Below are positions 5,762 through 56,852 of a stretch of 64,000 bases of DNA, one piece after another. Origin of the DNA: Microbacterium halotolerans (GTDB taxonomy: Bacteria; Actinomycetota; Actinomycetes; Actinomycetales; Microbacteriaceae); assembly GCF_003569805.1 (NCBI RefSeq), contig NZ_KZ984051.1:244760-308759 (forward strand), given 5' to 3'. Every line of letters begins with the position of its first letter. Positions within the stretch are counted from its first letter, which is position 1. Below the pieces are notes generated by a model. That model did not search any database. It saw only the letters and a list, made by a program, of their open reading frames with translations, and had not been told where the DNA came from. The translations under genes and the position numbers were made by a program.

Positions 5762-5776
5762 CCCTCCGCGCCCGCT

Positions 5777-5850
5777 GCCGAGATGCGCACTTCTCGTCGA
5801 GATGCGCCGCTTCGGACGCCGATCCGTCGAATAAGTGCGCATCTCGCGAG
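5777..5850. repeat. Palindromic element, copy 1 (inverted orientation)
   Basis: Outer arms CGAGATGCGCACTT (5779-5792) and AAGTGCGCATCTCG (5833-5846) are perfect complements. The reverse complement of the whole element aligns with the copies at 7622-7697 and 55939-56018, including the inner block GATCGGCGTC. It lies between two divergent genes, apt and the unknown gene at 5880. Confidence 0.8.
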
Positions 5851-5867
5851 CCGGTTCGCGCGGGCTC

Positions 5868-6464: not shown

Positions 6465-6505
6465 CGCCAGCGCCGCGCGCCCTGTTCGCGAAGTGCCCCG
6501 TTGTC

Positions 6506-6558
6506 GCCGAGATGCGCCGTTCTCGCCGTCGTTTCGGACGACAACGGCGCATCTCGGC
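6506..6558. repeat. Related palindromic element, variant copy
   Basis: Perfect 16-bp arms, GCCGAGATGCGCCGTT at 6506-6521 and its complement at 6543-6558. The centre also pairs in part. It shares the GAGATGCGC core with the three 75-bp elements but has a different interior. It lies between convergent genes ending at 6464 and 6566, where it could act as a bidirectional terminator. Confidence 0.75.
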
Positions 6559-6565
6559 GAACGGA

Positions 6566-7621: not shown

Positions 7622-7697
7622 GCTCGCGAGATGCGCACTTTTCGTTCAGATCGGCGTCAAAACTGGCGCATTTCGACGAAATGTGCGCATCTCGGCA
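7622..7697. repeat. Palindromic element, copy 2
   Basis: Arms CGAGATGCGCAC (7627-7638) and GTGCGCATCTCG (7683-7694) flank an interior containing CAGATCGGCGTCAA and TTTCGACGAAA. Almost the same sequence is found at 55939-56018. The element sits between the SDR stop and the dehydrogenase start and may affect expression of the downstream gene. Confidence 0.85.
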
Positions 7698-7711
7698 GCT
7701 GGGCGCGGGGC

Positions 7712-16704: not shown

Positions 16705-16713
16705 CCGTCAGTT

Positions 16714-16771
16714 CTTCATTTCTGGCACATCTCCGGGTGGGCACCCCACCGGAGATGTGCCAGAAATGAAG
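16714..16771. terminator. Perfect 23-bp stem between convergent regulators
   Basis: Arms 16714-16736 and 16749-16771 are exact complements (left arm begins CTTCATTTCTGGCACATC), with a 12-nt loop. It lies between the stops of the SorC-type and LacI-type regulators. No T-run follows on either strand. The position favours a bidirectional terminator, although the length is unusual and it may be another mobile palindrome. Confidence 0.7.
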
Positions 16772-16793
16772 AGATAGGGCAGGTCGGCGCGGG

Positions 16794-19183: not shown

Positions 19184-19337
19184 GCACCTGATTGAGTGAG
19201 TCACAATAACGCCTGCGTTCTTGAGACGAACGATTGAAGGTCGTAGGCGCACAGCGCCGAGCACCTGATTGAGTGAGTCACAACAACGCCTGCGTTCTTG
19301 AGACGAACGATCGAAGGTCGCAGGCGCACAGCGCCGA
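19184..19337 (+). repeat. Two 77-bp direct tandem repeats upstream of the aldolase gene
   Basis: 19184-19260 and 19261-19337 abut exactly and differ at only three positions. Each copy holds TGAGTGAGTCAC (19193 and 19270), the complement of a motif found before the GH4 and AgaS-like genes, and the block GCCTGCGTTCTTGAGACG followed by a partly complementary GGTCG(C/T)AGGC. The pair lies 45 bp upstream of the aldolase start, so it may be a duplicated operator or promoter module. Confidence 0.85.
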
Positions 19338-55754: not shown

Positions 55755-56852
55755 CTACCCCGCCGGGTCGGCCAGCCGGATGTCGCCGTCGGGGTCTGCG
55801 ATGACGGTGGCCTGCGGTGCCGAGGCCGGGTCGCGCAGCAGGGTTCCCGACTGAGACACGGAGAGCGCCCCGAAGCTGGCGGCGCCCGCGATAGCGGCCG
55901 CCACATCGATGCCTGCGCGCGGCGCATCCGGCTCATCCGGCTCGCGAGATGCGCACTTTTTCGACAGATCGGCGTCAATATCGGCGCATCTCGACGAAAG
56001 GTGCGCATCTCGCGAGCCTGGCGCGGCGGCGAGAGCGTGTACGAGGAAGCCGGCGAGCGAGGCATCGCCCGCGCCGGTGGAGTTGATGATCGCGGCGGGG
56101 GCGGCGCGGGCCCACCACGAGCCGTCGCGTGTGACGGCGAGTGCGCCGTCCTCGCCCATCGAGACGTACACGGTCTCGCAGCCGCGCTCGACCAACCGGA
56201 GCGCGGCGCTGCGCACCTCGCCGAGCGTGCGCAGCGGAAGACTCGTCGCCGCGGCGAGCTCGTGCGTGTTCGGCTTCACCAGCGCGACCCGTGCGAGAGA
56301 GCGCGCGAACACGCCCTCGAGCGCGCCACCGCTGGTATCGACCGCGATTCGCGCATCGGTCTCCGCAGAGAGCGCATCGATCAGACGGCACAGGTCGACA
56401 GAGCCGCCGCCCGGCGCGCCTTCTCCCTCCGCGGCGAGCGGGGGCACCGAGCCTGCCAGCACGATCCAGTCCGCGCCGATCGCCCGCACCCGGCTGACGG
56501 TCTCGGCGAGCACCGCCTCCACCTCGCCGTGCGTCAGCGGGCTCGTCGGAGCGTTCAGCTTCGTCGTCACGCCGTCGGCGGTGACCATCGTCACGTTCAC
56601 GCGCGTGCGCTCACGGGCCGCGACCGGCCGCAGCCATTCCGCTTCCGCTTCACGCGCATCCGCCTCTGCCATCGGCAGCACGGCGACGGTGCGCGTGCCA
56701 GACAGCGCCACAGCGTGCGAGACGTTGACGCCCTTGCCGCTGAGTTCCCGGGTCCACGCGCTGGCGCGGTTCACGGCCCCGGGAACCACGGCGTCCGCCC
56801 GATACGTCAGGTCGATCGCCGGGGCGAGCGTCACGGTCACGATTCCGCTCAT
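55755..56852 (-). CDS. 1-phosphofructokinase-type PfkB kinase carrying an in-frame palindromic element
   Basis: 365 residues, longer than the usual 310-330. TLAPAIDLTYRADAVVPG and GKGVNVSHAVALSG are typical of the fructose-1-phosphate/tagatose-6-phosphate kinase branch. The catalytic Asp is in NSTGAGDASLAGFLVHALA. Directly after it, residues about 279-305 are encoded by a copy of the palindromic repeat (RDAHLSSRCADIDADLSKK). The normal C-terminal helices resume with AAAIAGAASFGALSVSQ. The reading frame stays open, so the protein may still be active with an extra surface loop. GAGGG precedes the ATG. It follows the DeoR gene in the polyol operon. Confidence 0.85.
   Translation of the reverse strand: MSGIVTVTLAPAIDLTYRADAVVPGAVNRASAWTRELSGKGVNVSHAVALSGTRTVAVLPMAEADAREAEAEWLRPVAARERTRVNVTMVTADGVTTKLNAPTSPLTHGEVEAVLAETVSRVRAIGADWIVLAGSVPPLAAEGEGAPGGGSVDLCRLIDALSAETDARIAVDTSGGALEGVFARSLARVALVKPNTHELAAATSLPLRTLGEVRSAALRLVERGCETVYVSMGEDGALAVTRDGSWWARAAPAAIINSTGAGDASLAGFLVHALAAAPGSRDAHLSSRCADIDADLSKKCASREPDEPDAPRAGIDVAAAIAGAASFGALSVSQSGTLLRDPASAPQATVIADPDGDIRLADPAG
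55939..56018. repeat. Palindromic element, copy 3, inside the PfkB coding sequence
   Basis: Arms 55939-55956 and 56001-56018 are perfect 18-bp complements (GGCTCGCGAGATGCGCAC). The interior (CAGATCGGCGTCAA, CATCTCGACGAAA) matches the intergenic copy at 7622-7697 at most positions. It encodes about 27 residues in the kinase without a stop codon. Confidence 0.9.

Follow-up and report, generated by a model that had tools for sequence, protein, structure and literature searches.

The PfkB-family kinase gene at 55755..56852 (minus strand) of the analysed DNA, a 64,000-nucleotide stretch from Microbacterium halotolerans referred to here as the window, contains a palindrome that leaves its reading frame intact. 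This raises the question of what the segment is, where it came from and how such a sequence could enter a protein gene.

A hairpin element inside a kinase gene

The kinase gene encodes 365 aa and matches Pfam PfkB with E = 1.4e-20. The initial annotation described an 80-bp palindrome with perfect 18-bp arms inside this coding sequence, and we found it as described at 55939-56018. The repeat unit proper is slightly shorter: it occupies 55940-56017 with its standard orientation on the minus strand, measures 78 bp, or exactly 26 codons, and includes 17 bp of each arm, the 18th being a flanking base pair. It lies in the stretch after the GAGD helix, where residues about 279-305 of the protein are element-derived. 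Folded as RNA, this copy reached -46.1 kcal/mol, compared with -25.1 on average for shuffles (z = -6.3), and 0 of 200 shuffles were equally stable. Both of its ends are of a CG variant that only 4 of 75 aligned copies carry in this way, and its arms are perfect for this reason.

Homologous kinases were compared at the insertion site. Within the genus, 30 further genomes gave a match at E ≤ 1e-45; two of them had no locus, and the remaining 28 gave aligned kinases of 46-50% identity; all 28 have 0-5 residues in the columns where the two carriers have 27. The second carrier is the sister genome G026, the closest relative, in which the element sits at the identical kinase site with 3 differences in 78 bases, and the frame is kept across the insert in both species. 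The kinase insertion is therefore older than the split of the two sister species. In G026 the same loop is lengthened by 36 extra bases directly behind the insert, rich in CCGGATG-like words (window 55755-56852 compared with L072). These results indicate that the 78-bp element in the kinase is an insertion, as had been proposed for a dispersed palindromic repeat on the strength of the window, with orthologue alignment as the suggested check. Two observations had been named that would speak against it, namely orthologues carrying the same residues and a lack of further copies; so far the 28 homologues are without the 27 residues, and further genomic copies are numerous.

Several of these copies lie in the window itself. 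Related DNA had been reported between genes at 7.6 kb, and a copy at 7622-7708 is indeed 85% identical over 87 bases, the full intergenic element between two genes being 7622..7699 (minus strand). Another full intergenic copy stands at 5774..5851 (plus strand), and a diverged one lies at about 6500..6560 (plus strand; hairpin 6504-6560). Beside the sister's orthologue of the copy at 5774, about 4.8 kb is present that is absent from the window (L074:7206-11980 compared with window 5774-5859); by ORF reading it encodes an isomerase-like protein, a sugar-binding protein, an ABC ATPase and a permease. The window also holds other repeats: a 77-bp unit in two tandem copies, 96% identical, at 19184-19337, and at 16713..16772 a perfect 60-bp hairpin beginning TCTTCATTTCTGGCACATCTCCGG, which represents a second repeat family. 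More copies of this 60-bp family occur in stretches of both sister genomes (L017, L073, L075, L090 and others), one of them, in the sister, roughly 100 bp upstream of a DUF559-like gene (L336).

Structure, reading frames and distribution of the 78-bp family

The 75 copies aligned from the two genomes have highly conserved arms, and 73 of them are exactly 78 bp long. Their consensus starts with GCTGCCGAG and ends with CTCGCGAGC, and the end word CGAGATGCGC occurs once more 19 bases downstream of its first occurrence. One end has GC where the other has CG, an inverted dinucleotide, in 52 of these copies, which leaves a 2-bp mismatch in the stem. Seven pairs were changed on both sides, compared with 3.3 in shuffles, a value reached by 2 of 500 shuffles; as a sign of RNA this covariation is modest only, since related sequences can beat shuffles without any structure and the arms barely vary. 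At gathering thresholds no Rfam family matched in the window. Many copies are preceded by a C-rich stretch, which we considered as a part of the element and then counted as flank, because the empty allele at one site has it too.

The initial annotation had noted one and the same open peptide frame in all three full copies and suggested that the element tolerates or exploits residence in genes. The first statement is true, yet the frame is not special: frames +0, +1 and +2 are open in 59, 42 and 74 of the 75 copies and frames -0, -1 and -2 in 70, 71 and 70, so that every frame but one is open in 59 copies or more, compared with 47% in shuffles. The scarcity of stop codons in the sequence keeps most frames open. 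The element does tolerate genes, since a second in-frame intragenic copy exists at L024:1496-1573, antisense in the linker between the two ABC domains of a fused ABC-transporter ATPase; the kinase copy is thereby ruled out as the sole intragenic one. Exploitation was not supported, with 3 of 75 copies being intragenic (the kinase copy in both species and the ABC-transporter copy). The notion of one kept peptide was not supported either: inserted in opposite orientations, the kinase and ABC-transporter copies encode different peptides, which, together with the open-frame counts, rules out a single peptide function of the element. The view that palindromes inside genes are limited to Rickettsia and a few others was too narrow, as they are known well beyond Rickettsia in the accessible part of PMC3733652, and intragenic REP copies encoding 20-30 residues are described in the parts available of PMC3733652 and PMC3116915. 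By description rather than by sequence, the element resembles the rickettsial palindromic elements in being an in-frame palindromic insert inside protein genes; unlike them, it is intragenic in 3 of 75 copies and occurs there in two orientations.

A DNA search of the own genome yielded 40 places (40 scored of 96 first-look candidates). With a covariance model, whose E-values are rough, at least 67 distinct places were found in the own genome and at least 68 in G026 among the matches listed. Across the genus, 2 of 366 genomes matched when two candidates were scored per genome. In a collection of 84,980 species, which may leave out records near the own genome, the exact pattern was found in Frigoribacterium sp. 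JB110 (Microbacteriaceae) alone, in 31 stretches. Spread by a phage or plasmid was rejected as an explanation: a 101-bp query comprising the element and its flanks had no match in plasmids and phages, and the exact element pattern had none in viral contigs.

The end word and the DUF559/Vsr-like genes between hairpins

The end word of the element led beyond the two sister species. Among 398 genomes of the family, a draw from a larger number, the word CGAG[AT]TGC(N)CACTT was present in 118 and had at least 10 exact hits in 19 (the own genome included) from 9 genera, with up to 179 hits; the reversed pattern, used as control, never exceeded 4 per genome. In genomes with one or two hits, many isolated end words look like chance words in genes. 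Forward and reverse end words frequently form pairs with their starts 44 bases apart. Such pairs mark hairpins of 57-58 bp, and the arms of these hairpins are particular to each genome or genus. In the same 398 genomes the covariance model gave weak matches in 12 further genomes, and 11 loci were inspected: six are CGAG[AT]TGC hairpins with different arms, two have near variants and three other words. The 78-bp element belongs to this class, being a hairpin with the CGAG[AT]TGC end word or its clade-specific equivalent. Other hairpin repeats stand outside the end-word class, for example GGGTCTCGATACGCCC..CTACTCGACCAGCATG and AAGTTGCGGTAGTCG in one further genome (L274 and L275 of G433).

Regions with hairpins about 1 kb apart (L265-L270) drew attention to the genes in between. 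Five of the six regions were inspected for genes, and in three of them (L267, L268, L270) a DUF559-type gene lies between the hairpins, with ordinary genes in the other two (L265, L266). A motif scan of the loci collected nine DUF559-type proteins of 299-317 aa. Hairpins or end words also adjoin such genes in L205, L206, L211, L212, L227 and L242, and by inspection hairpins stand on both sides in L211, L212, L242, L267, L268 and L270. The Pfam matches of the nine proteins were partial (six of nine for each of two families), and AbiEi families gave weak, below cut-off scores at the N-terminus of some members. The protein is presumably a nuclease of PD-(D/E)XK type. The nearest solved relatives of the profile were weak ones, the endonuclease-like 3hrl (E = 0.1) and the mobile intron protein 3r3p, a structure that we take to be I-Bth0305I; as the nearest solved structure by sequence (E only 0.044), 3r3p likens the proteins to the Vsr-like EDxHD homing endonucleases. 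An enzyme of that group dimerises on a target of nearly 60 bp, according to the accessible part of PMC3943268, a length similar to that of the hairpins here. Unlike those homing endonucleases, the genes seen here are free-standing between hairpins, with no intron or intein seen.

A profile of the nine proteins was then searched in 16 genomes, and 30 loci were obtained. A hairpin was present within 320 bp at 25 of these loci, on both sides at 13 and with matching sequence on both sides at 12; without the three loci used to train the profile, the counts were 22 of 27 for any hairpin and 10 of 27 for matching pairs. Kinase loci served as a control (49 of 52 were long enough), and 4 of the 49 had a hairpin, none on both sides and none a matching pair. 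Among 468 ordinary predicted genes, whose stretches were partly chosen near hairpins, 141 had a hairpin, 13 had one on both sides and 3 had a matching pair. One of these three is itself a DUF559 gene, that of G117; at the other two genes it is the 78-bp element that stands on both sides. For matching pairs at DUF559 loci against the 468 genes, Fisher's test gave p of about 1e-11; the gene caller, hairpin detector and similarity threshold were custom, and the controls went through the same code. In eight genomes of the same genus that have 0-2 end words, a hairpin was found at 14 of 15 DUF559 loci, and five had matching hairpins on both sides. These results show an association of DUF559/Vsr-like genes with flanking hairpins.

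The matching pairs vary from one DUF559 gene to the next, and the flanking families are also dispersed: in stretches of 180 kb each, G117 has three additional copies and G605 has one. When the threshold was loosened, the three stronger G026 genes (L297, L311, L333) also had similar hairpins on both sides. Protein relatives in named records, of which four of five hits were fetched, came from three Arthrobacter plasmids and one phage contig; at the looser threshold all four had a hairpin near the gene, and NZ_CP012477 had matching ones on both sides. Among the titles and abstract openings searched, with subscription papers mostly outside reach, no DUF559 genes flanked by palindromes were described. 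Some observations go the other way. DUF559-type genes are frequent (3-8 per genome) in genomes without the end word, which counts against the class proposal; 5 of the 30 loci lacked a hairpin at the test threshold, and hairpins as such are frequent near ordinary genes as well (141 of 468).

In the two sister genomes seven DUF559-type genes were found, and the 78-bp element itself flanks not one of them; its family looks orphan because none of its own copies was found at such genes. The own genome has one profile hit, a weak one (44 bits), at C2:170789-171325. The N-terminus of the encoded protein is AbiEi-like at a score below threshold, Pfam DUF559 does not match the protein, and its best hit among solved structures (E = 2.1) is not meaningful. 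GAGATGC hairpins related but not identical to the 78-bp element stand on both sides of this gene: CGAGATGCCACGG..CCATGGCATCTCG is found on the 5' side, while the 3' hairpin contains the word GAGATGC three times, and two of these occurrences are spaced by 19 bp, like the pair in the 78-bp element. The corresponding sister unit is 88% identical and keeps the 19-bp word pair on the 3' side, but its 5' hairpin, CGAGGTGCC..GGCACTTCG, has a different end word, CGAGGTGCC. Another G026 profile hit (L337; 43 bits, no Pfam match) lies between four-word hairpins of 72 and 80 bp. The 78-bp family thus shares end word, spacing and architecture with the hairpins at DUF559-like genes, and its source is likely a diverged DUF559-like unit at G000:C2 near 170.6-171.5 kb.

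In our judgement the insert is, with slightly better than even probability, a REP-like non-autonomous hairpin repeat of a class in which a DUF559/Vsr-like gene stands between cognate hairpins. The layout of this class would be one such gene between two cognate hairpins of about 50-80 bp each, with gene-free hairpins scattered genome-wide, often just behind stop codons. The DUF559/Vsr-like protein may bind the hairpin as a dimer and cut or nick it or a target, after which repair of the break would copy the hairpin to a new place; a double-strand cut, a nick of the extruded hairpin and a single-stranded intermediate are candidate details. We infer that the nuclease spreads the repeats and that selection would then leave copies mainly in 3' untranslated DNA. 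The kinase copy would be a rare tolerated landing, in which 78 bp preserve the frame, five of six frames are mostly stop-free and the site is a variable loop.

Among the closest known parallels is the REP/REPIN system with its RAYT enzyme. In the proposed class, as there, high-copy palindromes that are mostly intergenic at 3' ends carry a conserved end tag, and an enzyme gene of the system's own stands between palindromes of the same kind; for REPs, both the position beside 3' ends and the flanking of RAYT genes are described in the accessible parts of PMC3733652 and PMC3116915. Here, unlike there, the flanked gene is DUF559/Vsr-like, the unit measures 57-78 bp, and the consensus of the 75 copies shows no unpaired GTAG or CGTC end tag. 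RAYT as mobiliser was rejected, its Y1 transposase (PF01797) being absent from both sister genomes in a search that was positive in 8 of 14 control genomes.

Gene context, sister genomes and other explanations

AbiEi antitoxins bind their operators through an N-terminal helix-turn-helix domain. By analogy, the flanking hairpins could be operators or terminators bound by the N-terminal helix-turn-helix of the DUF559/Vsr-like protein, and the dispersed copies a regulon or sponge that some unrelated process has spread. The weak AbiEi scores of some members fit this, as does the position of the flanking hairpins, mostly within about 140 bp of the start or stop; a terminator would also act where many copies of the 78-bp family lie, at most 30 bp behind a stop codon (45 of 75). 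We nevertheless regard it as unlikely. Matching hairpins downstream of the stop are unexpected for an operator, the arms are gene-specific while the copies have multiplied, and at least 67 copies would be needless for one autoregulatory operator.

The gene context of the copies was examined in those scoring 45 or more against the profile (31 own, 44 from G026), which are 75 of at least 135 copies; orthologous pairs were counted twice, copies scoring below 45 were left out, and the surrounding genes were called by a custom codon-score script. In standard orientation, 32 copies lie between convergent genes, 21 between two forward genes, 8 between two reverse genes and 9 between divergent genes; two lack a called gene on one side, and the rest are the three intragenic ones. 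Where the upstream gene points at the element (n = 53), the copies follow the stop codon of that gene at a median of 12 bp, 45 of them within 30 bp. Within the copies examined, the family is thus a high-copy extragenic palindrome mainly at gene 3' ends, as in REP/REPIN. The same position, together with the stable fold, would suit hairpins for 3'-end processing (terminators or mRNA stabilisers) that are under selection and owe their similarity to gene conversion rather than mobility. Such an origin is distinctly improbable in view of the 364 of 366 genus genomes without a match (two candidates scored per genome), the sites filled in one sister only and the insertion inside two different genes.

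The filled and empty sites came from a comparison of two stretches with G026. Of 17 own copies there with a score of at least 45, 13 have a counterpart in G026, two have none and two could not be placed. Individual aligned sites differ in kind: at one, a full copy is present in the own genome only, and G026 is also without flanking bases there; at others, a full copy is present in G026 only, another hairpin replaces the element in the own genome, or a shortened copy is found in the own genome only. An element common to both species has decayed in G026 at a further site. At the intergenic site L077:1417-1494 (G026:C13:101417; near G000:C1:205000 in the own genome), one species carries the 78-bp element and the other a GAGCGTGCC..GGCACGCTC hairpin. 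On the preferred reading, the 78-bp family had expanded by the time the two sister species split.

No target-site duplication was visible at the sites differing between the sisters, where the flanks have diverged. This bears on a classical MITE, an IS derivative with 17-bp terminal inverted repeats moved by some DDE or HUH transposase. The element is like MITEs in being a short, non-autonomous inverted-repeat element with terminal inverted repeats, and its fixed length (73 of 75 copies exactly 78 bp) and patchy distribution (2 of 366 genomes of the genus) agree with that. Against it, no target duplication was visible at the differing sites, the search for a parent element, which covered PF01797, found no Y1 transposase in either genome, and the internal third end word and the DUF559 association would be left unexplained; we consider a MITE very doubtful.

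The REP-like reading, in which a DUF559/Vsr-like gene stands between cognate hairpins, extends to a broader and more tentative proposal, to which we give somewhat less than even credence: an actinobacterial mobile-repeat system made of a Vsr/EDxHD-like nuclease with a DNA-binding N-terminus and two cognate hairpins of about 50-80 bp. The nuclease would multiply free-standing hairpins by cut-and-repair, and each nuclease clade would have its own hairpin code. Such a system would parallel RAYT/REP while using an enzyme unrelated to RAYT, and it would occasionally write 26-residue loops into proteins.

According to the accessible part of PMC3733652, one of the two large REP classes (CGTC) is apparently without a dedicated transposase. 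If the proposal is true, a second, unrelated enzyme family would be tied to REP-like repeats, and the arrangement would have arisen more than once. DUF559, still listed in Pfam as a 'protein of unknown function', would gain a testable role, and many natural nuclease-hairpin pairs would become available for studying how palindromes are recognised. For these bacteria, hairpin insertion also accounts for how short loops may enter their proteins.
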